Positions 41,661 through 61,655 of a stretch of DNA of 64,000 nt are shown piece after piece. This DNA is from Rubrivivax sp. (lineage in GTDB: Bacteria > Pseudomonadota > Gammaproteobacteria > Burkholderiales > Burkholderiaceae_C). Location of the stretch: the NCBI GenBank assembly GCA_021298085.1, contig JAJTDE010000007.1:21931-85930 (forward strand). The letters are read 5' to 3'. Position 1 is the stretch's first letter, and every line of letters begins with the position of its first letter. The position numbers were made by a program, and so were the translations under genes. The notes beneath the pieces are model-generated. The model made no database searches. It was not told where the DNA came from and saw nothing but the letters and a program-made list of their open reading frames with translations.

Positions 41661-41702
41661 TTGCCATTCCACTTCATGATCTGTATATTCGTACTTGCTT
41701 AT
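41661..41702 (+). promoter_or_regulatory. soxC promoter with overlapping palindromic operator
   Basis: A good sigma-70 promoter: -35 TTGCCA (41661-41666), 17-base spacer, -10 TATATT (41684-41689). A 16-bp inverted repeat ATTCG-TACTTG-CTTAT (41687-41702) overlaps the -10 and the expected start site near 41696. It has the same build as the sites at 46932, 50797, 53224 and 53391. A repressor bound here would block RNA polymerase. The local AT-rich patch stands out from the GC-rich surroundings. Confidence 0.6.
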
Positions 41703-41769
41703 ATCAAGAAAGAACGCTCAAGCACGCTTGGCGCTCTCTCCACGCAGCAACGCCACCCGAGGTTCCACC

Positions 41770-43149
41770 GTGCCCGAGATCAATGGCCCCCGCGGCCGAA
41801 TCGTCAAGGCGCCCGAAAACTTCCTCACCCCAGACGGCATCAAGACCGTCTTTCGTGAAGGCAAGTCCGGGCGCCGGGATTTCATCCGACAAGCCTTTGT
41901 CGCCGCCACGGCCGCGGGCGCCGCCGCCGGCAGTGCGCTGGCAGCCGGCAACCCTGTCCCGTCAGAAGGGGGAGACCCCAACATCCTCAACCTGCCCACA
42001 CACAGCACTGGCCTGGGGCAGCCGGTGGTCACCGATGGCTATGGCAAGCCATCCCAGTACGAAACCAACGTCCAGCGCCGCCAGAGCCCCGGCCTCACCC
42101 AGACCACCCAGGCCAGCGTGAGCTTCGCGCCGCTGCAAAGCTTGTTTGGCATCGTCACGCCCAGCGGCTTGCACTTCGAGCGCCATCATCAGGGTTGGTG
42201 GGACATCGACCCGTCCAAGCACCGGCTGATGATCAATGGTTCGGATGCGCAGATCGTCAAGAAGCCCATGGTCTTCACGATGGACGAGATCATGCGCCTG
42301 CCGGCCGTCAGCCGCTTCCACTTCATCGAGTGCGGTGCCAACACCGGCATGGAGTGGGGCAACGTCGCAGTGCCCACCTGCCAGTACAGCCACGGCATGC
42401 TGAGCTGCAGCGAGTTCACCGGCGTACCCCTGAAGGCCGTTCTGGACATGTGCGGCGTCGACTACAGACGCGGCCGCTTTGTACTCGGCGAAGGCGCCGA
42501 CGGCTCCTCCATGACACGCACCATCCCGATGGAGCTCGTGGAGAGCGGCGAAGTGCTGTTGGCCTACGGCCAGAACGGCGAAATGCTGCGGCCCGAAAAC
42601 GGCTACCCGCTGCGGCTGGTCGTGCCCGGTGTTCAAGGCGTCAGCTGGGTGAAATACCTGCGCCGCATCGAAGTGGGTGACAAGCCCTATGCGGCCAAGG
42701 ACGAGGTCATGCACTACGTTGACCTGATGCCCAACGGCCTGCACCGCCAATACACCAGCACCCAGGAGTGCAAGAGTGTTGTCACGACGCCGTCGGGCGG
42801 GCAAGTGCTGCTGGACAAGGGCTTCTACAACATCAGCGGGTTGGCCTGGAGCGGTCGCGGAAAGATCCGGCGGGTCGACGTGTCGGTCGACGGTGGCCGC
42901 AACTGGCGCAGCGCACGGCTCGAGACGCCGGTACTGGACAAGTGCCTGACACGCTTCAACCTCGATTGGGTCTGGGACGGCAAGGCCGCGCTCATTCAGA
43001 GTCGAGCCACCGACGACACCGCTTACGTGCAACCCACCTACCGCCAGTTGCGCCAGGTGCGCGGCTCGCGCTCGATCTACCATAACAACGCCATCCAGAC
43101 TTGGCTCGTCCAGGAGAGTGGTGAGGTGAAGAATGTCCAGCTGTCGTAA
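41770..43149 (+). CDS. soxC: Sulfane/sulfite dehydrogenase molybdenum subunit SoxC
   Basis: A 459-residue SoxC. A Tat signal 'GRRDFIRQAFVAATAAGAAAG' begins near residue 32. The molybdopterin domain carries the Mo-coordinating cysteine in 'FHFIECGANTGMEW' (near 188), with 'HHQGWWDIDPSKHRLMING' before it, and a C-terminal dimerisation domain with 'WSGRGKIRRVDVSVDGGRNW'. With SoxD it oxidises the sulfane sulfur bound to SoxY, giving six extra electrons per thiosulfate. I chose GTG 41770 because GAGG lies 7 bases upstream and the N-terminus 'PEINGPRGRIVKAPENF' fits the family; the frame is open from a TTG at 41695. It overlaps soxD by 17 bases. Confidence 0.92.
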   Translation: MPEINGPRGRIVKAPENFLTPDGIKTVFREGKSGRRDFIRQAFVAATAAGAAAGSALAAGNPVPSEGGDPNILNLPTHSTGLGQPVVTDGYGKPSQYETNVQRRQSPGLTQTTQASVSFAPLQSLFGIVTPSGLHFERHHQGWWDIDPSKHRLMINGSDAQIVKKPMVFTMDEIMRLPAVSRFHFIECGANTGMEWGNVAVPTCQYSHGMLSCSEFTGVPLKAVLDMCGVDYRRGRFVLGEGADGSSMTRTIPMELVESGEVLLAYGQNGEMLRPENGYPLRLVVPGVQGVSWVKYLRRIEVGDKPYAAKDEVMHYVDLMPNGLHRQYTSTQECKSVVTTPSGGQVLLDKGFYNISGLAWSGRGKIRRVDVSVDGGRNWRSARLETPVLDKCLTRFNLDWVWDGKAALIQSRATDDTAYVQPTYRQLRQVRGSRSIYHNNAIQTWLVQESGEVKNVQLS

Positions 43150-44236
43150 TCGGTTCGCTGCTGCGCTGCTGGCCCTGGCCACCGGCAGTGTCCTGGCGCA
43201 AGCTGCCACCCCAGCAGCTGCCATATCCGGTCTGGGCCGGCCGGCCACCGCCAAGGAAGTGGCGGCCTGGGACATCGATGTTCGTCCTGATTTCAAGGGG
43301 CTGCCCAAGGGCAGCGGCTCGGTCGCCAAGGGCATGGATGTCTGGGAAGCCAAGTGTGCGTCCTGCCACGGTGTTTTTGGCGAGAGCAACGAGGTCTTCT
43401 CGCCGGTGGTGGGCGGCACCACCAAGGCAGACATCCAGACGGGCCGGGCAGCGCGACTGCTCGACGAGAGCTTCCCGGGGCGAACCACCCTGATGAAGGT
43501 CTCCACGGTGTCCACGCTGTGGGACTACATCAACCGCGCCATGCCGTGGAACAACCCCAAGACACTGACGGTCGAGGAGGTCTATGCGGTCACCGCCTAC
43601 CTGCTGAACATGGGTGGCGTGCTGCCAGACAACTTCACGTTGTCCGACCAGAACATCGCGCAGGTGCAGGCCTTGCTGCCCAACCGAAATGGCATGACCA
43701 CCGACCACGGCATGTGGCCTGGCCGCAGCATGGGTAACGGGGGGCGGCCGGATGTCAAGGCCGTGGCATGCATGAAGAACTGCGCCGTGGAGCCGACGGT
43801 CAAGTCCTTTCTGCCCGACCACGCGCGCAATGCCCATGGCAACCTGGCTGAACAAAATCGGCTGATTGGTGCCCAGTTGGGTGCTGACACGACGAAGCCG
43901 CCTGGCACGCCCTTTGTTCCCCCCAGCGCGCCGGCACCAGCCGCGCCGAGCACAGGCTCAACCGCTGCTGCTGCTGCTGCTGCCAATCCAGCCAGCTTGT
44001 TCAAGAAACACTCGTGCAACGCGTGTCACGGGGTCGAAAACAAGATAGTTGGGCCCGGCATGCGTGAAGTCGGGAAAAAATATGCAGGCCGCGCCGATGC
44101 TGTCGACTATCTCGCCGGCAGGATCGTTAGCGGTGGCACGGGCGTCTGGGGTGCGATACCGATGCCTGCACAAAGCCTTTCCCCCGCCGACGCCAAAGCG
44201 CTTGCGCGCTGGATCACCGAAGGCGCCAAGCCCTGA
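43133..44236 (+). CDS. soxD: Diheme cytochrome c SoxD
   Basis: A 367-residue exported cytochrome with a signal peptide ending 'GSVLAQA'. Two haem motifs are present, CASCH (near residue 75) and CNACH (near 295), in two cytochrome c domains joined by an alanine/proline-rich linker that includes an alanine run. 'CMKNC' near residue 213 is another conserved SoxD feature. SoxD accepts electrons from SoxC. Presence of an intact soxCD pair predicts full oxidation of thiosulfate to sulfate without stored sulfur globules. It overlaps soxC by 17 bases and lies 38 bases before soxY. Confidence 0.92.
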   Translation: MSSCRNRFAAALLALATGSVLAQAATPAAAISGLGRPATAKEVAAWDIDVRPDFKGLPKGSGSVAKGMDVWEAKCASCHGVFGESNEVFSPVVGGTTKADIQTGRAARLLDESFPGRTTLMKVSTVSTLWDYINRAMPWNNPKTLTVEEVYAVTAYLLNMGGVLPDNFTLSDQNIAQVQALLPNRNGMTTDHGMWPGRSMGNGGRPDVKAVACMKNCAVEPTVKSFLPDHARNAHGNLAEQNRLIGAQLGADTTKPPGTPFVPPSAPAPAAPSTGSTAAAAAAANPASLFKKHSCNACHGVENKIVGPGMREVGKKYAGRADAVDYLAGRIVSGGTGVWGAIPMPAQSLSPADAKALARWITEGAKP

Positions 44237-44274
44237 AACTGTCGATGTCGACACCCACATCTAGGAGATAAACA

Positions 44275-44733
44275 ATGCAATCCCGACGCGAGATGCTCTC
44301 GACCAGCACGACGCTGGCCGCGCTGATGGTATCGGTGGGCCTGCTGCCCACCGCCGCGCAGGCCAACTGGAGCAAGGAAGCCTTTGAGGCCAAGACCTTG
44401 GCCGATGCGGCCAAAGGTCTGGGCGGTGGCGCCCCCGTGGCCAGCAAGGACGTGACCATCACCGGTCCCGACATCGCCGAGAACGGCGCGGTGGTGCCCG
44501 TTGGTGCGTCAACCAGCCTGCCCGGCGTGAAGCGGCTGGCGCTGATGGTTGAAAAGAACCCGAACGCGCTGGCCGCCGTCTTCGACGTGACCGATGCCAT
44601 CGACGCCAACGTCTCGACACGCGTCAAGATGGGCCAGTCATCCAATGTTTTCGCCGTTGCCATCATGAACGACGGCAAGGTGCTCTACGCCCAGAAAGAA
44701 ATCAAGGTCACCCTCGGCGGCTGCGGTGGGTGA
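44275..44733 (+). CDS. soxY: Thiosulfate oxidation carrier protein SoxY
   Basis: A 152-residue periplasmic carrier. A signal peptide starts 'SRREMLSTSTTLAALMVS' (twin-arginine-like) and ends near 'AAQANW'. The SoxY domain includes 'ITGPDIAENGAVVPVGAS', and the C-terminus is the swinging arm 'GGCGG' whose cysteine carries sulfur intermediates. It works as a heterodimer with SoxZ. The stop codon is followed directly by a long hairpin and then a tandem repeat, so soxY and soxZ are 215 bases apart, which is wide for two subunits needed 1:1. Confidence 0.94.
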   Translation: MQSRREMLSTSTTLAALMVSVGLLPTAAQANWSKEAFEAKTLADAAKGLGGGAPVASKDVTITGPDIAENGAVVPVGASTSLPGVKRLALMVEKNPNALAAVFDVTDAIDANVSTRVKMGQSSNVFAVAIMNDGKVLYAQKEIKVTLGGCGG

Positions 44734-44775
44734 GTACGGACTGAAAACCGTCCTGAGGACGGTTTTCAGCCGTAC
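44734..44775 (+). other. Long perfect hairpin directly after soxY
   Basis: The stem CTGAAAACCGTCC / GGACGGTTTTCAG (44741-44753 and 44757-44769, loop TGA) is perfect over 13 bp. It is extended by outer arms GTACGG / CCGTAC (44734-44739 and 44770-44775) with one bulged A. It begins at the first base after the soxY stop. No T-run follows, so it looks more like an mRNA-protecting or attenuating structure than a full terminator. Confidence 0.75.
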
Positions 44776-44900
44776 GAACCGACCGAGCTCTGCGAGGTCG
44801 TGGATGAGCGAGCGAACCGACCGAGCTCTGCGAGGTCGTGGATGAGCGAGCGAACCGACCGAGCTTGAGCGAGCGAACCGACCGAGCTCTGCGAAGTCAC
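44775..44900 (+). repeat. 38-bp tandem repeat between soxY and soxZ
   Basis: Unit 1 (44775-44812) and unit 2 (44813-44850) are identical 38-bp copies starting CGAACCGACCGAGCTC. Unit 3 (44851-44873) is a 23-bp copy lacking 15 internal bases. Unit 4 (from 44874) matches for about 20 bases, then has a substitution and diverges near 44900. Each full unit contains CGACC...GGTCG, able to form a small hairpin. There is no open reading frame across it and no spacers, so it is not CRISPR. Confidence 0.9.
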
Positions 44901-44948
44901 CAGGCCCAGATCATTTACCTCAACGTTTGAATTCACAGGAGAACTGCC

Positions 44949-45260
44949 ATGGCAGACCCGATGCGCATCCGCGCTCAAGTTGCTGGCGACAAAGCCACCG
45001 TCCGTGTCCTGATGAGCCACGAGATGGAAACCGGTCAGCGCAAGGACAGCGCTGGCAAGACCATCCCTGCCTGGTTCATCCAGGAAGTGACGGCCCAGCA
45101 CAACGGCAAGACCGTGATGAGCGCCCAGTGGGGCCCCTCAGTGTCCAAGAACCCATTCATGCAGTTCAGTGTCAAGGGCGCCAAGGCCGGCGACAAGATC
45201 ACTGTCAGCTGGGTGGACAACAAGGGCGACAAGCGCACCGACGAAGCAACGGTGAGCTGA
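44949..45260 (+). CDS. soxZ: Thiosulfate oxidation carrier partner SoxZ
   Basis: A 103-residue SoxZ with an Ig-like fold and no signal peptide; it is exported by piggy-back with SoxY. Landmarks are 'MRIRAQVAGDKATVRVLMSHEMETGQRKDSAGKTIPAWFIQEV' (near residues 5-47) and 'SVSKNPFMQFSVKGAKAGDKITVSWVDNKGD'. The start has a strong Shine-Dalgarno AGGAGA. The 160-base gap to soxA holds two small inverted repeats, the clearer being GTTTCTC/GAGAAAC at 45341-45358. Confidence 0.94.
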   Translation: MADPMRIRAQVAGDKATVRVLMSHEMETGQRKDSAGKTIPAWFIQEVTAQHNGKTVMSAQWGPSVSKNPFMQFSVKGAKAGDKITVSWVDNKGDKRTDEATVS

Positions 45261-45340
45261 TCAGCCCTCAGGTCAACTAATCTCTGACATCAGCAGCGCC
45301 TGGTCACTCCGCAGCGCAGTTCACTGCGGGTTTTCCGGGC

Positions 45341-45358
45341 GTTTCTCGCTCGAGAAAC
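45341..45358 (+). promoter_or_regulatory. Inverted repeat upstream of soxA
   Basis: Perfect 7-bp arms GTTTCTC / GAGAAAC with loop GCTC, 62 bases before the soxA start. A second small hairpin CGCAG/CTGCG precedes it. It could be an operator or an RNA hairpin that tunes soxAXB relative to soxYZ. No clear promoter was found next to it. Confidence 0.4.
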
Positions 45359-45420
45359 AACCTACCATAAAGTCTCCATGCCAAGCCCATGGAGCCAACC
45401 TTCCACCGTAGGAGCACCCC

Positions 45421-46218
45421 TTGAAGAGAGCCCTCATGGCGGCTACCGTGCTGATGGCTGCGGCCTTCAGCGCACATGCCCAGAAGTCGTCGGCGGACGG
45501 CATCGCCGAATACCGAAAGATGCTGGAGGACGGCAACCCTGCCGAGCTCTTTGAAGCCAAGGGAGAAAATCTCTGGAAACAAAAGCGCGGCCCCAAGAAC
45601 GCCACACTTCAGCAGTGTGACCTCGGGCTCGGGCCTGGCGTTGTCAAGGGCGCCTGGGTGCAGCTGCCGCGCTGGTTTGCCGACACTGGCCGGGTGCAGG
45701 ACCTCGAATCGCGCCTGCTGACCTGCATGGTCACCCTGCAAGGCCTGAACGCCGACGACATCACCAAGGCACCCTTCGGCCGCGGCGAACAGGCCAACAT
45801 GGAGGCCTTGGCGGCCTGGATCTCGGCCGAATCCAAGGGCATGAAGTTCAACTTGCCACAAGCGCATGCCGAGGAGCGCCGGTTCTATGAATTGGGCAAG
45901 CGCGCCTTCTTCTTCCGCGGCGGGACACACGACTTTTCCTGCGCGGCGTGTCACAGCGAAGATGGCAAGCGCATCCGCCTTCAAGACCTGCCCAACCTCA
46001 CCAAGAATCCCGGCAACGGCATCGGCTTTGCCGCCTGGCCCGCATACCGGGTCTCGAGCGGCGAGATGTGGAGCATGCAGCGCCGCCTGAACGATTGTTT
46101 CCGGCAGCAGCGCTTTCCCTATCCTGGCTTCGCCAGCGACGTGACCGTCGCGCTCGGGGTCTACATGGGTGTCAACGCGAAGGGCGCCGAGTCCATCGCA
46201 CCCGCCATCAAGCGCTGA
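45421..46218 (+). CDS. soxA: Sulfur oxidation c-type cytochrome SoxA (monoheme type)
   Basis: A 265-residue SoxA with a signal peptide ending 'FSAHAQ'. The single haem motif CAACH is near residue 174. The C-terminal active-site cysteine is in 'RRLNDCFRQQRFPYP' (near 225); it ligates haem and carries the persulfide. In place of the first haem of diheme SoxA there are two isolated cysteines ('LQQCDLG' and 'LLTCMVT'), probably a disulfide. With SoxX it attaches thiosulfate to the SoxY cysteine. The start is TTG 45421, supported by AGGAG 6 bases upstream. SoxX follows after 16 bases. Confidence 0.93.
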   Translation: MKRALMAATVLMAAAFSAHAQKSSADGIAEYRKMLEDGNPAELFEAKGENLWKQKRGPKNATLQQCDLGLGPGVVKGAWVQLPRWFADTGRVQDLESRLLTCMVTLQGLNADDITKAPFGRGEQANMEALAAWISAESKGMKFNLPQAHAEERRFYELGKRAFFFRGGTHDFSCAACHSEDGKRIRLQDLPNLTKNPGNGIGFAAWPAYRVSSGEMWSMQRRLNDCFRQQRFPYPGFASDVTVALGVYMGVNAKGAESIAPAIKR

Positions 46219-46234
46219 ACCAGGGGAAATCTGC

Positions 46235-46882
46235 ATGAACAAGCCGACTCACCACGCAGTCTTGGCCATCGGCACGGCCGTTCTCTTGGCCGGGTGTGCC
46301 AGCGGACCTTCACCCGCGCAACTCGACGAACAGGCCGCCGCGATGATGAAGGCGTCCTTCCGGGACCAAGGCATTGCCAAAGCTGACCGCATCAACCAGG
46401 ACTTGGGGCAATCCGCGTGCTCGTCCGACAAGGCGCCCGCGGAAGCCGTGACCAAGAAGGTCGAAGCGGAGGCCTTGGCGTCCATCAAGCCGCCCGCCAA
46501 TGGCCAGTACCTGGGTGCCTGGAAACAAGGCGAGCGCATCGCCCAGAGCGGCCGCGGGATGACCTGGAGCGACCCCAACACTGACACCAAGAACAATGGC
46601 GGAAACTGCTACAACTGCCACCAGATCGACCAAAAGGAGATCTCCTACGGCACCATCGGCCCCAGCCTGTGGAACTACGGGAAGCTGCGCGGTGTGAACG
46701 ACCCCGCAGCTGCCGCAGCCAAGCCCATCGTCGAGTACACCTGGGGCAAGCTCTGGAACAGCAAGGCTTACTCTGCCTGTTCCAACATGCCGCGTTTTGG
46801 CCACATGAAGCTGCTCGATGAAGAGCAGATCCGCCACATCATGGCACTGTTGCTGGACCCGGCTTCCCCGGTCAACCAGTAG
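46235..46882 (+). CDS. soxX: Sulfur oxidation c-type cytochrome SoxX, lipoprotein-like
   Basis: A 215-residue monoheme cytochrome with haem motif CYNCH near residue 125 in 'NNGGNCYNCHQID', and the SoxX ending 'NMPRFGHMKLLDEEQIRHIMALLLDP' whose methionine is the likely distal ligand. The N-terminus reads as a lipoprotein signal, 'AVLLAGCAS', with Cys21, so it may be membrane-anchored. An N-terminal region of about 80 residues precedes the haem domain, making it longer than compact SoxX. It pairs with SoxA. A rho-independent terminator follows its stop codon. Confidence 0.92.
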   Translation: MNKPTHHAVLAIGTAVLLAGCASGPSPAQLDEQAAAMMKASFRDQGIAKADRINQDLGQSACSSDKAPAEAVTKKVEAEALASIKPPANGQYLGAWKQGERIAQSGRGMTWSDPNTDTKNNGGNCYNCHQIDQKEISYGTIGPSLWNYGKLRGVNDPAAAAAKPIVEYTWGKLWNSKAYSACSNMPRFGHMKLLDEEQIRHIMALLLDPASPVNQ

Positions 46883-46896
46883 GCATGTTGTGCCTG

Positions 46897-46920
46897 GGCC
46901 CGTGCCTGCGGGCCTTTTTT
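46897..46920 (+). terminator. Rho-independent terminator between soxX and soxB
   Basis: Stem GGCCCG / CGGGCC (46897-46902 and 46909-46914), loop TGCCTG, followed at once by six T (46915-46920). This is a textbook intrinsic terminator, 14 bases after the soxX stop and 28 bases before the soxB start, on the coding strand. It should reduce or stop read-through from soxCDYZAX into soxB. Confidence 0.82.
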
Positions 46921-46931
46921 GACGTTCAAAC

Positions 46932-46947
46932 ATAAGCAAGCACTTAT
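46932..46947 (+). promoter_or_regulatory. Palindromic operator candidate at the soxB start
   Basis: A perfect inverted repeat ATAAG-CAAGCA-CTTAT, ending one base before the soxB ATG. It has the same 5-6-5 build as the site over the soxC promoter and shares the CTTAT half. It occupies the place where a ribosome-binding site should be, and no clear Shine-Dalgarno is visible here. Confidence 0.5.
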
Positions 46948-46948
46948 C

Positions 46949-48703
46949 ATGAGCCTGAGCAAGCGCGAATTTCTCCAGGTGTTGTCGGCGGCTGCCGTCG
47001 CCGGCATGGGCCTGGCCCGCTATGAGTCGGCCGATGCAGCGACGGCGGAAGCAGGCCTTTACGACCTCCCTCCTCTTGGCACAGGCACGGGCCATGTCAG
47101 CTTCCTGCACATGACCGATTGCCACGCGCAGCTCAAGCCGATCTACTTCCGCGAGCCCAGTGTCAACCTGGGCATCGGCAGCATGAACGGTCAGTTGCCC
47201 CACCTGGTCGGCGAACACCTGCTCAAGCGTGCTGGGGTCAAGCCGGGCACACCGCTGGCCCATGGCTACACCTTCCTCGATTTCGAACGCGCCGCGCGCC
47301 GCTACGGCAAGGTTGGCGGGTTTGCCCACCTTGCAACCCTCGTCAAGCGCCTGAAGGCCAGCCGCCCCGGCGCCCTGCTGCTGGATGGTGGCGACACCTG
47401 GCAGGGCAGCGCCACCAGCCTCTGGACCAACGCGCAGGACATGGTCGACGCCTGCAAGGCCCTGACGGTCGACGTGATGACCGGTCACTGGGAGTTCACG
47501 TACGGCATGAAGCGCGTGAAGGAGATCGTCGAGAAGGACTTCAGCGAGGGCACACACAAGGTTGACTTTGTGGCGCAGAACGTGAAGACCAATGACTTCG
47601 GTGATCCGGTCTTCAAGCCCTATGTGCTGCGCGACATGAGCGGCGTGAAGGTAGCCATCGTCGGCCAGGCGTTCCCGTACACACCCATCGCCAACCCTCG
47701 CTACATGGTGGCCGACTGGGAGTTCGGGATCCAGGACGAAAACATGCAGAAGGTGGTGGACGACGCACGCGCCAAGGGTGCCCAGGTCGTGGTGGTGGTC
47801 AGCCACAACGGCATGGACGTCGACCTGAAAATGGCCAGCCGTGTACGCGGCATCGACGCCATCTTCGGCGGCCATACCCACGATGGCGTTCCCGTGGCCA
47901 TTCCCGTCAGCAACCCAGGCGGCAAGACGCTGGTCACCAACGCTGGCAGCAACGGGAAGTTCCTGGGCGTGATGGACTTTGTGGTCAAGGACGGCAAGGT
48001 CTCCGACTTCCGCTACCGCCTGCTGCCTGTATTCGCCAACATGCTCAGGCCTGACCCTGAGATGGACGCACTGATCACCCGGATCCGCGCGCCGTACGAA
48101 GGCAAGCTGGCGGAGAAGCTGGCAGTCACCGACGGTCTGCTGTTCCGGCGAGGCAACTTCAATGGCAGCTGGGACCAGCTCCTCTGTGATGCCCTGATGG
48201 ATGTCCAGGGCGCCCAGATCGCGTTCAGCCCGGGCTTCCGCTGGGGCACCAGCCTGTTGCCCGGCGACGTGATCACGCGCGAACTGATGATGGACCAGGT
48301 CGCCATCACCTACCCCTACGCGACCGTGACGGACATGTCGGGCGAGATGATCAAGACGGTGCTCGAAGACGTCGCCGACAACCTCTTCAACGCCGACCCG
48401 TACTACCAGCAGGGCGGCGACATGGTGCGTATTGGCGGGCTGCAGTACACCATGACACCCGGGGAGAAGATGGGCTCCCGCATCAGCGACATGCGGCTGG
48501 GTGACAAAGGCATCGAAGCCTCGAAAACCTACAAGGTGGCGGGCTGGGCGCCGGTTGCCGAAGAGGCCGCGCGCGCCGGGAACAAGCCGGTCTGGGATGT
48601 CGTGGAAACCTGGCTGAAGAGCCGGCCCAACGGCCGGGTGACAGCCCGCAAGATCAACACACCCAGACTGGTCGGCATGGCGGGCAACCCCGGAATCGCC
48701 TGA
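46949..48703 (+). CDS. soxB: Thiosulfohydrolase SoxB
   Basis: A 584-residue SoxB. The signal 'SLSKREFLQVLSAAAVAGMGLA' is Tat-like with KR in place of RR. Dimanganese-site motifs are 'FLHMTDCHAQLKP', 'LLDGGDTWQGS', 'MTGHWEFTYG', 'VVVVVSHNGMDVD' and 'IFGGHTHDG'. The C-terminal 5'-nucleotidase-like domain has 'NGSWDQLLCDALMDV' and 'FSPGFRWGTSLLPG'. It hydrolyses the sulfone group from SoxY-S-thiosulfonate, releasing sulfate. ATG 46949 gives a proper signal; the TTG at 46919 lies in the upstream terminator T-run. A terminator and an operator-like palindrome precede it. Confidence 0.95.
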   Translation: MSLSKREFLQVLSAAAVAGMGLARYESADAATAEAGLYDLPPLGTGTGHVSFLHMTDCHAQLKPIYFREPSVNLGIGSMNGQLPHLVGEHLLKRAGVKPGTPLAHGYTFLDFERAARRYGKVGGFAHLATLVKRLKASRPGALLLDGGDTWQGSATSLWTNAQDMVDACKALTVDVMTGHWEFTYGMKRVKEIVEKDFSEGTHKVDFVAQNVKTNDFGDPVFKPYVLRDMSGVKVAIVGQAFPYTPIANPRYMVADWEFGIQDENMQKVVDDARAKGAQVVVVVSHNGMDVDLKMASRVRGIDAIFGGHTHDGVPVAIPVSNPGGKTLVTNAGSNGKFLGVMDFVVKDGKVSDFRYRLLPVFANMLRPDPEMDALITRIRAPYEGKLAEKLAVTDGLLFRRGNFNGSWDQLLCDALMDVQGAQIAFSPGFRWGTSLLPGDVITRELMMDQVAITYPYATVTDMSGEMIKTVLEDVADNLFNADPYYQQGGDMVRIGGLQYTMTPGEKMGSRISDMRLGDKGIEASKTYKVAGWAPVAEEAARAGNKPVWDVVETWLKSRPNGRVTARKINTPRLVGMAGNPGIA

Positions 48704-48744: not shown

Positions 48745-49881
48745 TCAGGCCTCCCGGTCAGCGGCCCAAAGCATCCAGCGCAGCGTCACCACACTGCCGA
48801 GCACGATACCGGCCACCGCGATCAGGGAGCCTATCGACAGCGTCGACAACCCGGTGAGCCCCTGGCCCACCGTGCAGCCGAGCGCCGTGACGCCGCCAAA
48901 GCCCATCAGCGCCGCGCCCAGCAGCTGTTGGCGCAAGTCGTGCAGCGACGCAAAACCCTCCCAGCGGAAAGTCTTGGTGGCCAGCGCATGCGCAGCAGAC
49001 CCGAGGATGACACCCACCACGGCCAGGATGCCGAAGCTGGGCTTCAGCGATGCGTCTGTCCACAAGGTGAGCAGCTCGATGGAGTAAGCCACCGGTGCCA
49101 CAAAGCTGAGCGATTCGATGGTGCGTGTGTTGGTGGCGAAGTAGACGTTCTCCAGGGTCTGCGGGTTCTCGCCAAATCCGAGGTGTCCTGTGACGTACCA
49201 GCCCAGCGGGATGATGGCGCCCAGCAGCAGGCCGGCAACCATCTTTCGCCGGTCAGCCCGAAACCGCGCGTCGGCCAGCACATAGGCCAACAAGCCCAGT
49301 ACGACCGCAGCACTCAGCACCACCAAGGCCAGGCGGGGCTCCCAACCGGTCAGACGCGACAGCGCCACATGCATGCCCTGCTGCGACCAGCCCCACTCAC
49401 CCAGGGGCAGGGCCACAGGGTCCAGCCAGGCTGAACGGGGCACGGCCAGCAAGCCCTTGAGGGTCATGTAGGAAAAGAGCCCCATGACCAGCAACACCAC
49501 CATGGAGCGAACACTGCCTGCGCCAGCACGGATGAGGTTCTTGTTGGCACAACCACCGGCCAGCGTCATGCCGACACCGAAGATCAGGCCGCCCAGCAGG
49601 AGACTCAGCCATGGCAGCACCGGGCGCTGGGCGACCGCCTGGCCGATGTCTGCCAGCCCGAACCATGCGAGGGCAGTGGTGCCGGCCATGGCCACCGCAA
49701 CGGCCATCAACCACATGCGCAGGCGCGCTGTGTGCCCCATGTTCACGACGTCGGACAGTGCGCCCATCGTGCAGAAGTTGGCCCGTGCGGCCACCACACC
49801 GAACGCAAAGCCCAGGACGAGCCCGCCACCCAGCACCCAGCGTGTGGCGGCCAGCACGGCAGGATCAAGTGCCTCACCCAT
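48745..49881 (-). CDS. YeeE/YedE-family (TsuA-like) thiosulfate or sulfur transporter
   Basis: A 378-residue membrane protein with two homologous halves. The family cysteines are present in 'RANFCTMGA' (near 37), 'LAGGCANKNLIRAGAG' (near 110) and 'ALGCTVGQGLTGLSTLSIGS' (near 340); in TsuA such cysteines relay thiosulfate through the membrane. Multiple hydrophobic helices are spread along the length. It lies 17 bases downstream of a TusA-like gene on the same strand, and YeeE-TusA (YeeD) pairs are a recurring transport unit. It is convergent with soxB. The exact substrate (thiosulfate or another sulfur species) cannot be read from sequence. Confidence 0.83.
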   Translation of the reverse strand: MGEALDPAVLAATRWVLGGGLVLGFAFGVVAARANFCTMGALSDVVNMGHTARLRMWLMAVAVAMAGTTALAWFGLADIGQAVAQRPVLPWLSLLLGGLIFGVGMTLAGGCANKNLIRAGAGSVRSMVVLLVMGLFSYMTLKGLLAVPRSAWLDPVALPLGEWGWSQQGMHVALSRLTGWEPRLALVVLSAAVVLGLLAYVLADARFRADRRKMVAGLLLGAIIPLGWYVTGHLGFGENPQTLENVYFATNTRTIESLSFVAPVAYSIELLTLWTDASLKPSFGILAVVGVILGSAAHALATKTFRWEGFASLHDLRQQLLGAALMGFGGVTALGCTVGQGLTGLSTLSIGSLIAVAGIVLGSVVTLRWMLWAADREA

Positions 49882-50279: not shown

Positions 50280-50699
50280 ATGAAACATCTCTGGGCCATG
50301 GCTGGCCTGATGGCCAGTCTGGCGCTGGCCCCGTCAGCCGCATCGGCACAGCACAAGGTGGTCTACCACGTCGACAACGCGTCAGCCCAAGGGCTGAAGG
50401 GTCTGCGAAGCATCCGCAACCACCTTGACACCGACCCCAAGGCCAAGGTGACCGTGGTGGCCCTCGCCGAAGGCATCGACTTCCTGCTGGAAGGCGCCAA
50501 AGATGCACAAGGCAACCCCTACATCGGGCCGATCGCCGCACTGGCAGCCCGCGGCGTGCGATTCGAGGTCTGTGACCTCACGCTGCGAAGCCGCAACCTG
50601 AAGCGCGAGTCGTTCATCCAGGAAGCGGATTTCACGCCGTCGGGCGTGGTGCGCATCACACAGCTTCAAAGTGACGGCCACGCCTACATCAAGCCCTGA
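50280..50699 (+). CDS. Exported DsrE-like protein
   Basis: A 139-residue protein with a cleavable signal peptide ('MAGLMASLALAPSAASAQ') and a DsrE/F-like fold: 'KVVYHVDNASAQGLKGLRSIRNHLD', 'VVALAEGIDFLL', 'IAALAARGVRFEVCDLTLRSR'. One conserved-looking cysteine (near residue 99 in 'FEVCDLT') sits where DsrE-type proteins bind sulfur. Cytoplasmic DsrE carries sulfur for reverse dissimilatory sulfite reductase; an exported version would act in the periplasm. It starts after a GAGGAG Shine-Dalgarno. Its role is inferred from context only. Confidence 0.75.
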   Translation: MKHLWAMAGLMASLALAPSAASAQHKVVYHVDNASAQGLKGLRSIRNHLDTDPKAKVTVVALAEGIDFLLEGAKDAQGNPYIGPIAALAARGVRFEVCDLTLRSRNLKRESFIQEADFTPSGVVRITQLQSDGHAYIKP

Positions 50700-50796
50700 C
50701 CCTACAACTGCGCGCACGCCGACGCGGATCGGCCGCGCCAGTGACCCACTCGGTTGATCGCTTCGTCGGCAGACACTGACCTTTGTCAACCAGAAT

Positions 50797-50812
50797 ATTC
50801 GTATAAACGAAT
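50797..50812 (+). promoter_or_regulatory. Perfect ATTCG-N6-CGAAT palindrome
   Basis: ATTCG-TATAAA-CGAAT is a perfect inverted repeat that contains ATTC-N8-GAAT, the architecture known for SqrR-type ArsR-family repressors of sulfide genes. The central TATAAA may be a -10 element. It lies 70 bases upstream of the half-length YeeE gene. It is the strongest of the related sites in the region. Confidence 0.62.
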
Positions 50813-50881
50813 AATCTTGTGACTGCGCAGGTGCGTCCGTGGCCATCGGGGTCACCGGCCTGCGCCCAAGGAAAGCACGTC

Positions 50882-51447
50882 ATGGGCATGACCAGCTGGC
50901 TGGAGGCCGTGGGCGAGAACGCCAGCGCGTGCCTGCCTGGGGCTGGGCAGGCGCCATCGGTGTGGGCCTGTGCATTGCGGCAGCCTGGTGGCTGACGTAC
51001 GCTGTCAGCCAATCGGCATTTGACCCCCATCCCGTCCAGGCACTGAGCTTCACGGGGCCTTCCTCCGAGTTCCTGACACGCGTCCTGTTCGCCAGCGACA
51101 AACCACCAACGTTCGACCTGGGCTTGATTCCCGGCGTGTTCGTGGGTTCATTTCTGGCTGCATGGCTGTTCGGCGAACTCAAGCTCGAGGGCTTCGAGGG
51201 CGGCCCCGGCATGCGCCGCTACCTGATCGGCGCAGTGTGCATGGGCTTCGGCGGCATGCTGGCCGGAGGCTGCGCGGTGGGTGCAGGACTGTCCGGTGCT
51301 GCCGTGTTCACCATCACCTCCTGGGTCACGCTGTGTGCCATCTGGGCCAGTGCGGCGTTGACGGACCGCCTGCTCGATCAGCGGTCCATACGCCTGCTGG
51401 ACCAGTCCATGCCCGGCACCAACACACCTGCGCTCCCCGCGCGATGA
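50882..51447 (+). pseudogene. Half-length YeeE/YedE transporter, probable frameshift near the start
   Basis: From about 50929 the frame encodes the C-terminal half of a YeeE/YedE protein: 'PAWGWAGAIGVGLCIAAAWWLTYAVSQ', 'PVQALSFTGPSSEF', 'ELKLEGFEGGPGMRRYLIGAVCMGFGGMLAGGCAVGAGLSG' (landmark). The N-terminal half is missing. The best start is ATG 50882, with AAGGA 8 bases upstream; it gives MGMTSWLEAVGENA and then runs out of frame. Adding one base near 50915-50925 would join it to 'QRVPAWGW'. Without a frameshift the CDS must begin at GTG 50929 or at GTG 50839 with arginine-rich non-family sequence. It could also be a functional half transporter translated from GTG 50929. It is convergent with fccB. 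Confidence 0.6.
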
Positions 51448-51527: not shown

Positions 51528-52805
51528 TCAGATGGCCAGCATGTCGGCCCAGATGTTGTCTGCCCAACTGAGGGCATAGCGGCCTTCGATCTGGTTGGCT
51601 GCCGCAGAGACGCCCCCCGAGCCCGGCACTGTCTTGAAGGTCTTGTCAGCCGCGTCGTACTGATGCACCGAGGCCACGTGGATGACATCGCGATCAGACA
51701 CGAAGCTGTAGCAGGTGTTCATGACCACCGGAGTGGGGTTGACGGCCTCACCCTTGAGCAGGCTGATGATGGCGGCCGCAGCGACCTTGGCGTGCTGATT
51801 GGCCATGTGCCCACTCTTGGGCATCATTGGCGCAGAGAAGGTGGAGTCACCCAGCACGTGCACGCCCGGCGCCGCTGTACTTTCCATCGTCAGCCAATTC
51901 ACCCCGACCCAGCGGTTGTTGACATTGACCAGCCCTGCCGAACGCGCAAGATCAGCCGCGCGCTGCGGCGGGATGATGTTGAGCACATCGGCCTTGACAT
52001 CATCAAACTCAAGTTTGGCCACATTGCCCGAGACTTCCTTGATCTCGTTGTTGGGCCGGTACTCGAGGATGCCCTTGTAGCGGTCGGCAAAGGCCTTCTC
52101 AAACAGCGCCTTCTTGGACTGAACTTCCGGGTTTGCGTCGAGCAGGAGCAACTTGCTCCTGGGTTTGCGTGCCTTGAGGTAGTTCGCAACCACGCAAGCA
52201 CGCTCGTAGGGCCCGGGGGGGCAGCGGTAGGGCACCTTGGGAACTGCGATGGCCACAACGCCACCGTCAGGCATGGCTTCGAGCTGCTGGCGCAGGGCCA
52301 AGGTCTGCGGGCCAGCCTTCCAGGCGTGCAGCACTCGTCCGCCGTCGAGAGCGGCCTGCAGCCCGCCTACCTGTTCCAGCATGAAATCGATGCCAGGCGA
52401 GACGATCAGGCGGTCGTACGGCAGCTCAGAACCCCCACTCAGCCGAACCTTCTTGGCGCCAGCGTCAATGGTCGTCACGTCACCCTGGACAACCTTGACG
52501 CCCAACGCCTTCAGCCCGTCATAGCCACGGGTGATGTCGCTCATCTGGCGGTAGCCGGCCACCACCAGATTGCTGATCGGGCACGACACAAACTGAGTGT
52601 TCCGTTCGATCAGCGTGACATCAACGTTGCCGCCCCACATCTTCAGGTAATGGGCCGCTGTGCTGCCGCCGAAGCCGCCACCCACGATCACCACACGTCC
52701 AATCGAAGGGCCGCTGCCCATGCTGGCGCAGCCCGTCATGGACGCGGCTGCCAAGGCGGCACCGGCTCCCAGGAGCTGGCGGCGAGAAACAATGTTCTGG
52801 TTCAT
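51528..52805 (-). CDS. fccB: Flavocytochrome c sulfide dehydrogenase, flavoprotein subunit (FccB/SoxF)
   Basis: A 425-residue exported flavoprotein. A Tat signal 'SRRQLLGAGAALAAASM' precedes the FAD site 'GRVVIVGGGFGGSTAAHYL'. The redox-active cysteines are probably those in 'PYRCPPGPYERAC' and 'MNTCYSFVSD', and a C-terminal FCSD domain is present. It oxidises sulfide to sulfur in the periplasm and passes electrons to the cytochrome subunit. ATG 52805 is chosen for the Tat signal; an upstream in-frame start at 52850 would lie inside fccA. It is 10 bases downstream of fccA. Confidence 0.92.
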   Translation of the reverse strand: MNQNIVSRRQLLGAGAALAAASMTGCASMGSGPSIGRVVIVGGGFGGSTAAHYLKMWGGNVDVTLIERNTQFVSCPISNLVVAGYRQMSDITRGYDGLKALGVKVVQGDVTTIDAGAKKVRLSGGSELPYDRLIVSPGIDFMLEQVGGLQAALDGGRVLHAWKAGPQTLALRQQLEAMPDGGVVAIAVPKVPYRCPPGPYERACVVANYLKARKPRSKLLLLDANPEVQSKKALFEKAFADRYKGILEYRPNNEIKEVSGNVAKLEFDDVKADVLNIIPPQRAADLARSAGLVNVNNRWVGVNWLTMESTAAPGVHVLGDSTFSAPMMPKSGHMANQHAKVAAAAIISLLKGEAVNPTPVVMNTCYSFVSDRDVIHVASVHQYDAADKTFKTVPGSGGVSAAANQIEGRYALSWADNIWADMLAI

Positions 52806-52815
52806 GTGCAACTCC

Positions 52816-53157
52816 TCACTTGCGCGCGGCAGGGACCGGCAGGGCTGCAAAGTAGGCCGCGATCAGACGAATCTGTTCGTCGGTGTAGCCCTTGGCGATC
52901 TGGTGCATGATGGTGGCAGGCTGGTTTCCGTTCTTGTAGTCAGCGATCATCGCCACCAGCTTGTCGGCCGGCATGCCTGCCAAGGGCTTCATGTCACCTC
53001 TGGCATTGCCGTTGGTGCCGTGGCAGTTGGCGCAGGTTGCTGCCAGGTTTCGGCCCAGCTGAGCAGAACCCGGCGCTGCGGGTGGCGTCTGTGCCTGCAC
53101 GGCAGCTGCCGCGGCCCATCCGATTGCCAAAGCCCATCGGGTGGTAAGTGGTTTCAT
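52816..53157 (-). CDS. fccA: Flavocytochrome c, monoheme cytochrome subunit (FccA/SoxE-like)
   Basis: A 113-residue exported cytochrome with a signal peptide ending 'AAVQAQT', haem motif CANCH (Cys42-His46) in 'LAATCANCHGTNGNARGDMKPLAGM', and an axial methionine probably in 'ATIMHQIAKGYTDEQI'. FCSD cytochrome subunits are often diheme; this one is the small monoheme type. It is the first gene of fccAB. An operator-like palindrome (53224-53239) lies in the 241-base divergent region upstream. Confidence 0.88.
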   Translation of the reverse strand: MKPLTTRWALAIGWAAAAAVQAQTPPAAPGSAQLGRNLAATCANCHGTNGNARGDMKPLAGMPADKLVAMIADYKNGNQPATIMHQIAKGYTDEQIRLIAAYFAALPVPAARK

Positions 53158-53386: not shown

Positions 53387-53406
53387 TAATATCACCATAT
53401 GCTGAT
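53387..53406 (+). promoter_or_regulatory. -10 element and palindrome at a likely leaderless start
   Basis: TAATAT (53387-53392) lies 6 bases before the hydrolase ATG, so transcription would begin at or next to the start codon, and no Shine-Dalgarno is present. A near-palindrome ATCAC-CATATG-CTGAT (53391-53406) covers the -10 and the ATG, again with the 5-6-5 build. Confidence 0.4.
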
Positions 53407-54382
53407 TTATAGAATCCATGCGTGGGCGTCAGGCAATCGGCCGTGGCTCTGCCTGTTCCTGGGTGTCGCGGCCTGGGCGTTCGGTCAGCAGGCAGCTGCG
53501 CAGGCGGCCCCACAAAGGCCGTCCCTGACACCCGTCGGCGACGGTATCTTCCTGGTGCAAGGCTTGTCGGCGCTGGGCTCGGCTGAAAACCGCAATTTCA
53601 TCTCCAACGCCAGCGTCATCGTCACCGCATCCAGCGTCGTTGTCGTCGACGCCCTGGGCGCACCCGCGCTGGCCCGCGAACTGATGGAGGAAATCCGCAA
53701 GCTCACACCCAATCCGATCAGTCACGTCATCGTCACGCACTACCACGCGGACCATGTCTATGGGCTACAGGCCTTCCGGGACGCTGGAGTCAAGATCATT
53801 GCCCACCCGCTGGCGCAGGTTTACCTGCACTCCGACGCGGCACAGCTTCGGCTGCAGGCCAGCCGCGAGGAAATGGCGCCATGGGTGGACGACAACACGC
53901 GCTTGGTAGCGGCCGATGTATGGGTCGACAAACCCACTGTCCTGAAGATTGGCGGCCTGGAGTTCCACCTCAAACCCGCGGGACCTGCCCACACCCCGGA
54001 AGATCTGGTGGTGTGGATTCCTGAGCGCAAGACACTGGTCGCCGGTGATCTGGTGTTCCGAGGGCGTGTGCCCTTTGTCGGACAAGCCGACAGTGGCCAG
54101 TGGATTCATGCACTTGATGGCCTGCTGGCGTACGAGGCTGACACCATCCTGCCCGGCCATGGGCCGGTGTCGTCCAAGGCTCGGCAAGATCTGCAATTGA
54201 CCCGAGACTACTTGGCCTTCCTTCGCCAGACCATGGGGGACGCTGCACGCAACATGGAACCGTTCGAGGACGCCTATGCGCGCACCGACTGGTCGCGCTT
54301 TGCCAACCTGCCGCTGTTTGGTGTCGCCAACCGCATCAATGCCTTCAATACCTATCTGCTCATGGAGAAGTTGGTGCCATGA
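53399..54382 (+). CDS. Exported metallo-beta-lactamase-fold hydrolase, SoxH-like
   Basis: A 327-residue protein with a signal peptide ('CLFLGVAAWAFGQQAAAQA'). The zinc-site motifs are 'VTHYHADHVYGLQAF' (H-x-H-x-D-H near residue 115), 'PAHTPEDLVVWIP' and 'TLVAGDLVFRGRVPF', with a final 'ILPGHGPV'. It resembles SoxH and the zinc hydrolases of quinoprotein-associated systems. The reaction is unproven; a thioester or polysulfide substrate is possible. Its stop overlaps the next start (ATGA, 54379-54382), so it is coupled to a TlpA-like thioredoxin. Confidence 0.82.
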   Translation: MLIYRIHAWASGNRPWLCLFLGVAAWAFGQQAAAQAAPQRPSLTPVGDGIFLVQGLSALGSAENRNFISNASVIVTASSVVVVDALGAPALARELMEEIRKLTPNPISHVIVTHYHADHVYGLQAFRDAGVKIIAHPLAQVYLHSDAAQLRLQASREEMAPWVDDNTRLVAADVWVDKPTVLKIGGLEFHLKPAGPAHTPEDLVVWIPERKTLVAGDLVFRGRVPFVGQADSGQWIHALDGLLAYEADTILPGHGPVSSKARQDLQLTRDYLAFLRQTMGDAARNMEPFEDAYARTDWSRFANLPLFGVANRINAFNTYLLMEKLVP

Positions 54383-54933
54383 GACGACGCCAGGCAGTCA
54401 GCGGCGCCGCAGGATGGCTCGCCAACATCGCCGGTGGCTCACTCGGCGTCACGTCGAGTTCGGTGTGGGGGCAATCAGCCGAAACTGGCCAGGGGCGCCA
54501 GCCGACTCGCCCTGGGGATCTCGTCGCATGGCCGACGGTCTCGCTGCTGGATGGTGGTGTCTGGGGGCCGGAGCAGGCCCGCGGCCATGCGGTGGTGGTG
54601 GTGTGGTGGTCACTCCACTGCCCATTCTGCGTCAGGCATAACCTTCGAATGGAGCAGCTTCACCGCCGAATCGGCGCAACGCCGCTGCGCATTCTGACTG
54701 CGCTCAGAGAGCCTGATGCGGCCGCAGCCAAGGTTCACGTGCGCAGCCAAGGCCTTCACTTCCCTGTGACGCTGGAAGCCCAACGGCTATCAGCGGTGTT
54801 TGGCGGTCGGCGCGTCAGCCCATTGACGGCAACGGTGGACAGACGCGGCAGGCTCCTGCAACTTATCCCAGGCGAGATGTCGGAGGATGACATCAACGGC
54901 CTGCTGGATCTCGGCCGACAACCGGGCGCCTGA
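54379..54933 (+). CDS. Exported TlpA/SoxW-like thioredoxin
   Basis: A 184-residue thioredoxin-fold protein with a twin-arginine-like start 'RRRQAVSGAAGWLANIAGG' and a signal region. The redox motif C-P-F-C (near residues 81-84) is in 'VVVWWSLHCPFCVRHNLRMEQL', followed by 'LHFPVTLEAQRLSAVFGGRRVSPLTATVDRRGRLL' where thioredoxins have the cis-proline (landmark). It could keep a periplasmic sulfur-carrier or haem cysteine reduced, as SoxW/SoxV do. It overlaps the hydrolase upstream (ATGA) and the cytochrome frame downstream (TGATG at 54931-54935). Confidence 0.8.
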   Translation: MRRRQAVSGAAGWLANIAGGSLGVTSSSVWGQSAETGQGRQPTRPGDLVAWPTVSLLDGGVWGPEQARGHAVVVVWWSLHCPFCVRHNLRMEQLHRRIGATPLRILTALREPDAAAAKVHVRSQGLHFPVTLEAQRLSAVFGGRRVSPLTATVDRRGRLLQLIPGEMSEDDINGLLDLGRQPGA

Positions 54934-54974
54934 TGGCGCCCATGCCATTCGCTTCCAGCGTAGAAAGGCTCCAC

Positions 54975-55403
54975 ATGCATCGTCACTTGCCGCACACCAA
55001 CATGGCCAGCGCTCGCCTGCAAATGACGGTCGCCCGGGCAACCCTTGGGACGGCATGTCTGCTGATGGGCATATGGGCGCCTGACTTGGCTGCAGCGCAG
55101 CCCAGGACACCGTCTGCAGCAGAGTTGTTCAAGGACGCCGACCTGGCCTTGGGCGAAAGGCTGATGGCCGAACATGCCTGCAGCGCCTGTCACATTCGCC
55201 GCGTCGGGGGTGACGGTTCAGCCATCTACCGCCCTCAGGGCCGCATCAATACGCCCAGTGCGCTGCGTGGCATGGTGGACTTGTGCAGCACCGAACTCAA
55301 GCTGAGCTTGTTTCCTGAGGAGGTGACAGCCGTCGCGGCGGTCCTCCAGCGAGACCACTACCGTTTTGGTGCGGCGGTTTCGATGAAAAAGGCGGCGCCC
55401 TGA
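54975..55403 (+). CDS. Small exported monoheme cytochrome c
   Basis: A 142-residue cytochrome with a signal peptide ('TLGTACLLMGIWAPDLAAAQ') and haem motif CSACH near residue 69 in 'LMAEHACSACHIRRVGGDGSAIY'. The rest, 'INTPSALRGMVDLCSTELKLSLFPEEVTAVAAVLQRDHYRF', has an extra cysteine and no obvious methionine ligand in a standard cytochrome place. I chose ATG 54975 with AAAGG 6 bases upstream; ATG 54933, coupled to the upstream stop, is also possible (156 residues). It is the third gene of the hydrolase-thioredoxin-cytochrome trio and likely an electron acceptor for it. Confidence 0.78.
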   Translation: MHRHLPHTNMASARLQMTVARATLGTACLLMGIWAPDLAAAQPRTPSAAELFKDADLALGERLMAEHACSACHIRRVGGDGSAIYRPQGRINTPSALRGMVDLCSTELKLSLFPEEVTAVAAVLQRDHYRFGAAVSMKKAAP

Positions 55404-55560
55404 CGGCCGTCGGCTCCCCCAAGGCCGTCAGTGCCATGGGGCATTCGTGCAGGGGAAACCGAACGGCTTGTGGCGGGTTAACATCAGTTCATCCGGATAT
55501 AAGTAAGCTTGACAAGGCTTGCGACTATCGAAGCACCCACCCTCTTGCAGTGAGCCGCCA

Positions 55561-55926
55561 GTGTCCAGCACGTCAACGCCCACCGATGACCCCGAGGCGG
55601 TGTTTGCCTCGGCCGCCGAACTCTTCGGCCTTCTGTCCACGCCGATCCGACTGCGGATCATCAGCGCGCTGTGTCACGGGGAAAAGAACGTTTCACAGCT
55701 GCTTGCCGCGATCGATACGACCCAGCCCAACATGAGCCAGCACTTGTCCACGCTGTACCGCGCGGGCATCCTGGGCAAACGCCGCGACGCCACGCAGATC
55801 TACTACCGGATCGAAAGCCAGCGCGCGGCCACGCTGTGCCGAGCGGTGTGCACGCAGATTGCGTTTGAACTCGACGACGCCGATGACATCCCGAAGGATG
55901 ACCGGCTCATGCCCCGCCTCCGGTAG
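55561..55926 (+). CDS. ArsR-family regulator with cysteines, SqrR/BigR-like candidate
   Basis: A 121-residue winged-helix ArsR protein: 'ELFGLLSTPIRLRIISALCHGEKNVSQLLAAID' then the recognition helix 'TQPNMSQHLSTLYRAGILGKRRDATQIYYRI' (landmarks). Cys38 in the helix before the DNA-binding motif and Cys93/Cys97 in the last helix sit about where SqrR, BigR and YgaV have the sulfide-sensing cysteine pair that forms a polysulfide bridge. It is a good candidate for the repressor of the nearby palindromes. GTG 55561 is chosen; an in-frame TTG at 55519 gives 14 more residues. A -10-like TATAAG (55498-55503) lies upstream. Confidence 0.82.
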   Translation: MSSTSTPTDDPEAVFASAAELFGLLSTPIRLRIISALCHGEKNVSQLLAAIDTTQPNMSQHLSTLYRAGILGKRRDATQIYYRIESQRAATLCRAVCTQIAFELDDADDIPKDDRLMPRLR

Positions 55927-61157: not shown

Positions 61158-61655
61158 ATGGGTTTAGTGTCACAGCGTCGCGTTTCGCAAGGGCAGCCAA
61201 CTCCGCAGCAAGGGCGTCGTTTTGTCGTGCGGCGCAGCGGTGTTCACGGGAAGGGCGTTTTTGCACTTCGTACCATCTCGGCCGGCGAGACGCTTGCAGA
61301 GTACACAGGAGAAGTGATCAGTTGGGAAGAGGCTCTGCGGCGGCACCCGCATGATCCTAACGATCCACATCACACCTTTTATTTCCACTTGGGGGACGGC
61401 AGTGTTATTGACGCCCGGACGCGTGGAAACTCTTCACGGTGGATCAATCATTCTTGCAATCCGAATTGTGTGAGTGACGAGGTGCGAGGCCGTGTTTTCA
61501 TCCGTGTGCTCCGCGATGTTTTGCCGGGTGAGGAGTTGTTTTATGACTATCGCTTGGTCATCGATGGAAAGTACACCGCCAAGCTGAAGCGTGACTACGT
61601 GTGCCTTTGCGGTGCTGAAAGATGTCGCGGAACGCTGCTGTTTCCCAAGCGATGA
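61158..61655 (+). CDS. SET-domain protein lysine methyltransferase
   Basis: A 165-residue protein made of one SET domain and a post-SET segment. Landmarks are 'SGVHGKGVFALRTISAGETLAEYTGEVI', the cofactor and pseudoknot motif 'RWINHSCNPNC' (near residue 94), 'GEELFYDYRL', and the zinc-type post-SET 'CLCGAERCRG'. SET domains transfer methyl groups from S-adenosylmethionine to lysine; the bacterial target is unknown. Its stop overlaps the birA start (ATGA). The codons are visibly less GC-rich than those of topB. A TAAAAT (61116-61121) is the only -10-like element upstream. Confidence 0.87.
   Translation: MGLVSQRRVSQGQPTPQQGRRFVVRRSGVHGKGVFALRTISAGETLAEYTGEVISWEEALRRHPHDPNDPHHTFYFHLGDGSVIDARTRGNSSRWINHSCNPNCVSDEVRGRVFIRVLRDVLPGEELFYDYRLVIDGKYTAKLKRDYVCLCGAERCRGTLLFPKR

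Follow-up and report, generated by a model that had tools for sequence, protein, structure and literature searches.

Does a compact cassette of four genes in Rubrivivax sp. form a sulfur system of its own, or does it serve the Sox pathway encoded next to it? The cassette lies at positions 53399-55926 of the stretch of DNA analyzed here (64,000 nucleotides of contig JAJTDE010000007.1, hereafter the window). A first-pass annotation had recognized there a hydrolase, a thioredoxin and a small cytochrome c, together with an ArsR gene said to be their own, and had proposed the set as a candidate for an undescribed system. A check of the open reading frames (ORFs) found all four genes where that annotation had placed them, and confirmed the ATGA overlap between the first two:

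53399-54382, + strand: gene for a metallo-beta-lactamase (MBL)-fold hydrolase (327 amino acids; Pfam Lactamase_B, motif THYHADH)
54379-54933, + strand: thioredoxin gene (184 amino acids; TlpA/ResA-type, CPFC)
54975-55403, + strand: cytochrome c gene (monohaem, extra cysteine C104; longest frame from 54933)
55561-55926, + strand: ArsR-family regulator gene (three invariant cysteines; longer ORF from 55519)

The evidence points to an accessory of the neighboring Sox pathway rather than to a system that functions by itself. We propose, with a probability of roughly 0.55, that it is an accessory upkeep module of periplasmic Sox thiosulfate oxidation, under an ArsR-type repressor common to the core sox genes. 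The support, all of it drawn from sequence, comprises a Sox-restricted distribution, the translational coupling of hydrolase and thioredoxin, an intact zinc motif, an invariant cysteine in the cytochrome and a common palindrome. Judged by eye from their export signals, the hydrolase, the thioredoxin and the cytochrome are exported, which supports the earlier description of a compact, exported, sulfur-linked module with a cysteine-bearing ArsR.

Distribution and gene order

Among 151 genomes sampled from the family, the MBL protein is present in 52 and soxB in 85, and the two coincide in 51 (Fisher test, 5e-16; this and the following P-values overstate independence, since the genomes are related by descent). 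The lone family genome with the MBL gene and without soxB is 76% complete. The class sample (185 genomes, two of them, including the window's own, shared with the family sample) contains the MBL protein in 26 genomes, all with soxB, which itself occurs in 76 (4e-12). That the MBL gene is found almost only with soxB speaks against the initial idea of a separate system. The cytochrome was detected in 40 genomes of the family sample, 37 of them with soxB (2e-8), and accompanies the MBL protein in 29 (1e-8); this co-occurrence is still enriched among soxB-positive family genomes (P = 0.014; about 0.015 in both samples). At the class level the cytochrome family is found in 71 genomes, 53 with soxB and 18 without, and 23 of the 26 MBL genomes have it. 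One soxB gene (genome G078, C1:3144386-3146075) was matched as two adjacent pieces, which indicates that it is split or frameshifted.

Seventeen of the 36 other genomes sampled from the window's Rubrivivax-like genus carry the cytochrome, and most of these relatives keep the order fccB< cytA< MBL> thioredoxin> cytochrome> ArsR>. In a set of 80 named cytochrome-centered loci, matches were found to the MBL protein in 40, to ArsR in 52, to the window-type thioredoxin in 30 and to soxB in 35. The arrangement varies: Ottowia and Polaromonas show the order MBL-thioredoxin-cytochrome-soxC, one Burkholderiales genome has MBL-ArsR-cytochrome-soxC, and in Hydrogenophaga the cytochrome stands alone between def and ligA. 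It is chiefly in the Rubrivivax group that the exact trio, with a thioredoxin of the TlpA type, is common; beyond this group a SoxW-type thioredoxin is found instead, and the cytochrome may be missing or unlinked. Co-occurrence far beyond close relatives, on which the original proposal depended, holds for the hydrolase and the cytochrome, and less so for the trio in its exact form. Gene set, order and overlap are nevertheless more than chance, as they are kept in many genera. Two variants of the neighborhood deserve mention. In Sphaerotilus sulfidivorans (locus L070, 6809-7471) an exported rhodanese-domain protein is encoded between a thioredoxin and the cytochrome, and the MBL gene is missing there; in two other loci, away from sox, a CsoR/FrmR-like regulator gene, recognized by eye, adjoins the cytochrome-ArsR pair (L061 8775-9113, L084 8743-9078).

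The MBL-fold hydrolase

The hydrolase matches Pfam Lactamase_B (E = 3e-29), and residues H114, H116, D118, H119, H198, D217 and H254 (HxHxDH...H...D...H) are invariant across 20 aligned orthologs, so that by sequence its dinuclear-zinc motif is intact. The best NCBIfam model is SoxH_rel_PQQ_2 (TIGR04559); the score of 187.2 bits is below the curated cut-off of 280, and membership in that family was rejected. The window protein was compared with the sox clusters of Paracoccus pantotrophus (locus L241) and Rhodobacter (locus L242). It does not resemble the first MBL-fold protein after SoxF in the Paracoccus cluster, but is 31% identical over 279 amino acids to the second (317 amino acids), which we take to be SoxH in the SoxG/SoxH naming. 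Where the window protein has THYHADH, Paracoccus SoxH has INENGQGHA. Paracoccus SoxH (locus L241, 19165-20055) has thus lost the HxHxDH metal motif and probably does not act as a conventional zinc hydrolase. Phylogenetic analysis places the window protein and its class-wide orthologs apart from Paracoccus SoxH and a quinoprotein-type protein (support 96/84 and 100/99; branches are long), while Paracoccus SoxH clusters with relatives encoded on plasmids and with a protein of the pyrroloquinoline quinone (PQQ) type. Hence the label "SoxH-like" given by the first-pass annotation is right at the level of the family, but the protein belongs to a separate clade, and tree, cut-off score and metal motif together rule out a plain SoxH. 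Its nearest other relatives are found in quinoprotein loci that adjoin a SoxYZ-like carrier (locus L128; 33% identity), and it is mainly for this reason that we suspect a SoxYZ-related substrate.

Two alphaproteobacterial plasmid loci (L126 13326-16238, L129 6502-9440) have the order ArsR-permease-thioredoxin-MBL-OsmC. Their MBL protein is related to Paracoccus SoxH and, as a check in L126 showed, is likewise devoid of the zinc motif; no sox genes occur within the stretch shown.

The thioredoxin and its coupling to the hydrolase

The thioredoxin gene begins within the last codons of the MBL gene, with an overlap of 4 bases (ATGA). The protein has a twin-arginine-like N-terminus (MRRRQ-), gives weak matches to Redoxin and ResA, and keeps C81 and C84 invariant across 31 sequences; SoxW was ruled out as its identity on sequence. 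In 22 of the 33 loci of the first set, the MBL end (NTGA) and the start of a TlpA-type thioredoxin gene share 4 bases. A further set comprised 40 MBL loci, each taken from its own genome and nearly every one from a different genus. In this set a thioredoxin-fold gene lies directly downstream in 32 (24 SoxW-type, 8 TlpA-type), and the exact 4-base overlap is found in 27. The SoxW-type partner matches Pfam Thioredoxin_2 and is 35% identical to Rhodobacter SoxW (E = 5e-14). As the type of thioredoxin is swapped while the overlap persists, the stable unit is the hydrolase together with an exported thiol reductant. Searches of plasmid proteins returned one ResA-like match for the thioredoxin and none for the cytochrome, and a search of plasmid DNA with the locus gave no match.

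The cysteine-bearing cytochrome

The cytochrome was said to follow the thioredoxin at once. Its longest frame does so, its ATG at 54933 sharing bases with the thioredoxin stop (TGATG). A start at 54975 is more likely, however, because a ribosome-binding-like AGAAAGG precedes it. The protein contains CSACH and one further cysteine, C104, and scores below the cut-off of every Pfam and NCBIfam family. C69, C72, H73 and C104 never vary in 78 close sequences, and C104 is likewise fixed in 24 distant sequences sampled across the class; Y85 and Y129 are invariant too. The position of M100 is occupied by Q or R in 23 of the 25 rows of the distant alignment. The lack of a conserved methionine ligand, combined with the invariant C104, suggests a His/Cys-ligated haem, and such a cysteine leaves a sulfur-binding role possible beside that of electron exit. 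Profile comparison gave a weak match to SoxA with 74% probability, in which the cysteines are three residues apart in the alignment, and a weak match to Pfam SoxA-TsdA. A structure model of moderate confidence (predicted local distance difference test, pLDDT, 73.8) found no confident match in PDB, with TsdA among the weak matches only.

The ArsR regulator and predicted operators

The ArsR-family protein (HTH_5, 4e-12; HTH_metalloreg over the cut-off) probably starts at the GTG at 55561 rather than at the TTG at 55519, and is the sole copy in its genome at E<=0.001. Among proteins of solved structure, its closest relatives are BigR and SqrR, BigR being the nearer. C52, C107 and C111, numbered along the ORF that starts at 55519, are conserved in all 47 sequences. 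The first sensor cysteine of BigR/SqrR aligns with Ser49, C52 being three residues further on, and C107 and C111 lie before the place of the second. In Hyphomicrobium, SoxR senses sulfane sulfur via Cys50 and Cys116 (PMC10451225). With cysteines at positions unlike those of SoxR, the window protein is at best a variant sensor, and an ordinary SoxR/BigR was ruled out for the same reason.

A matrix built from the MBL-start sites of related loci, in many of which a palindrome lies at the same distance (-11) upstream of the MBL gene, detects four sites of at least 20 bits in the window (top score among 30 simulated windows, 13.8):

53388-53409, no strand: palindrome AATATCA-N8-TGATTTA, overlapping the MBL start codon (28.7 bits)
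50794-50815, no strand: operator-like palindrome before yeeE/soxT (25.3 bits; exact ATTC-N8-GAAT at 50797-50812)
55480-55501, no strand: operator-like palindrome between the cytochrome and ArsR genes (22.3 bits)
41684-41705, no strand: operator-like palindrome heading soxCDYZAXB (20.2 bits)

A weaker site (11.6 bits) lies at the start of soxB. The exact ATTC-N8-GAAT before soxT, of which 0.17 would be expected by chance, is the sequence reported for SqrR (PMC9774250). In other genera palindrome sites precede 15 of 39 MBL, 6 of 14 soxC and 12 of 16 cytA genes, some of the cytA and MBL matches being one site in a common divergent region. The palindromes before the MBL, ArsR, soxT and soxC genes are predicted to define one regulon. 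The ArsR gene is therefore hardly the cassette's "own", as it had been called: with predicted operators also before soxC and soxT, it would belong to a Sox regulon.

Surroundings of the cassette

Upstream of the cassette, the window encodes the core Sox enzymes and several genes of sulfur metabolism:

41695-48703, + strand: soxC-soxD-soxY-soxZ-soxA-soxX-soxB (NCBIfam equivalog cut-offs passed by soxC, soxY, soxZ, soxA, soxX and soxB)
48745-49881, - strand: YeeE/SoxT-type gene, full length, within the sox cluster
50343-50699, + strand: gene for a DsrE-like protein (Pfam DsrE, 1.8e-12)
50839-51447, + strand: gene for a YeeE/SoxT half-protein (Sulf_transp, 2.4e-28)
51528-52850, - strand: fccB, divergent from the cassette (38% identity to Paracoccus SoxF)
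52816-53157, - strand: small cytochrome c gene (cytA), beside fccB and divergent from the cassette

The half-length YeeE/SoxT gene has its own operator-like site and the DsrE-like gene before it. A proA-like gene, recognized by eye, lies downstream of the cassette. Further on (61158-61655, + strand) we noted by eye a SET-domain-like protein of 165 amino acids with the motifs NHSCNPNC ... YDY, i.e. a eukaryote-like lysine methyltransferase fold in a betaproteobacterial host.

Proposed role

In the mechanism that we envisage, ArsR would keep both the cassette and the core sox genes repressed, and modification of its cysteines by reactive sulfur would lift this repression. The hydrolase would then clear a stalled or dead-end sulfur adduct from the carrier cysteine of SoxY, or a related small sulfane by-product, and the co-translated thioredoxin could return that cysteine to a free thiol. 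The thioredoxin would thereby do what SoxS/SoxW do in alphaproteobacteria and draw its reductant from DsbD; a DsbD-type reductase is encoded in the genome. The small cytochrome may exchange electrons with the released sulfur species, or bind it. That the cassette plays an accessory role in Sox of whatever kind we regard as likely, while upkeep of SoxYZ as its particular job is a tentative assignment, somewhat short of even odds. A bolder version makes the cytochrome a single-haem His/Cys sulfur enzyme, a minimal analog of SoxA/TsdA, which together with the hydrolase-thioredoxin pair would recycle the SoxYZ carrier or its by-products under the control of the shifted three-cysteine ArsR; this we consider unlikely.

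Several observations weigh against the proposed upkeep module. The window thioredoxin has no significant match to SoxW/SoxS in blastp (best E about 2), and 8 of the 40 MBL loci have no thioredoxin downstream. In other, distant gammaproteobacteria the gene for the MBL protein is often found next to tadA, unlinked to sox and lacking the thioredoxin. As for the operators, a score of 14 bits is also attained by 3.3% of random stretches from the test loci, and the matrix was trained on the MBL-start sites of relatives, so that the MBL site of the window is not independent evidence. Finally, neither SoxG nor SoxH is known to be indispensable for Sox in Paracoccus.

Rather than repairing SoxYZ, the hydrolase and the thioredoxin might release sulfane sulfur or pass it on to the SoxT/YeeE transporters, and so supply the cytoplasmic ArsR sensor and possibly assimilation. 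The cluster contains two YeeE genes, one of them preceded by the best independent operator-like site, YeeE and DsrE genes neighbor the MBL gene in many genera, and a thioredoxin beside soxT1A has been discussed as a transport partner of SoxT in Hyphomicrobium (PMC11582611). Yet it is the overlap of the MBL and thioredoxin genes that is stable, whereas YeeE varies in position, strand and presence, and the MBL gene of distant gammaproteobacteria tracks soxB without nearby YeeE matches; we regard such a relay as unlikely.

The restriction of the MBL protein to Sox-positive genomes already counts against an independent periplasmic system that hydrolyzes or reduces another (organic) sulfur compound, with electrons leaving via the cytochrome, as do the predicted operators common to soxC and soxT. 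The MBL family is broad and does not fix the substrate, and the cytochrome also occurs away from sox (by def/ligA in Hydrogenophaga, and in the 18 class genomes without soxB), but with the MBL gene almost never seen without soxB this explanation is improbable. It is very improbable that the four genes merely travel with sox and have no common function: the cytochrome and ArsR genes sometimes lie kilobases from the MBL gene or on other contigs, but the overlap is kept across genera despite the change in thioredoxin type, and the MBL protein and the cytochrome co-occur above expectation even within soxB-positive genomes. An accessory module of Sox thus remains our preferred explanation.

The role of the hydrolases and thioredoxins encoded beside sox genes is an old gap: the core steps of Sox have been worked out, but not how the SoxYZ carrier is maintained. 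In the genomes sampled here, a single hydrolase family accompanies sox in many genera, mostly in translational coupling with an exported thioredoxin of exchangeable type; that the coupling outlasts the exchange points to one common substrate. The cysteine cytochrome may represent a new type of sulfur haem protein, and the three-cysteine ArsR would bring a new geometry of sulfur sensing. Our search of the open-access literature found no description of the gene set of the cassette, nor of the coupled hydrolase-thioredoxin pair with its exchangeable thioredoxin, the cysteine cytochrome family or the shifted-cysteine ArsR.

Comparison with known systems

Every component of the cassette can be assigned to an established superfamily, and the pathway itself is a known one. 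Like the window hydrolase, Paracoccus SoxH is an exported MBL-fold protein from a sox cluster, where a flavoprotein of the SoxF/FccB type is its neighbor; it differs in the absence of HxHxDH, in its separate, supported group in the tree and in the absence of coupling to a thioredoxin. The zinc metallohydrolase 2 of the quinoprotein relay system (TIGR04559) shares the intact HxHxDH, and its member beside a SoxYZ-like carrier is the one with 33% identity, but the surroundings of the window MBL gene showed no genes for a PQQ dehydrogenase. With the periplasmic thiol reductants SoxW/SoxS the window thioredoxin has in common the exported thioredoxin fold and the location within a sox cluster, and in most genera the partner of the MBL protein is indeed SoxW-like; that of the window is of the TlpA/ResA type. 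The His/Cys-haem cytochromes SoxA and TsdA resemble the small cytochrome in the combination of CxxCH with an invariant downstream cysteine and no conserved methionine, whereas the latter is a single small haem domain with its extra cysteine offset by three residues. The sulfane-sulfur repressors SoxR, SqrR and BigR include the nearest solved relatives of the ArsR protein, and the operator-like palindrome resembles the ATTC-N8-GAAT of SqrR (PMC9774250), but they have two sensor cysteines at other positions, where the window regulator has three invariant ones.

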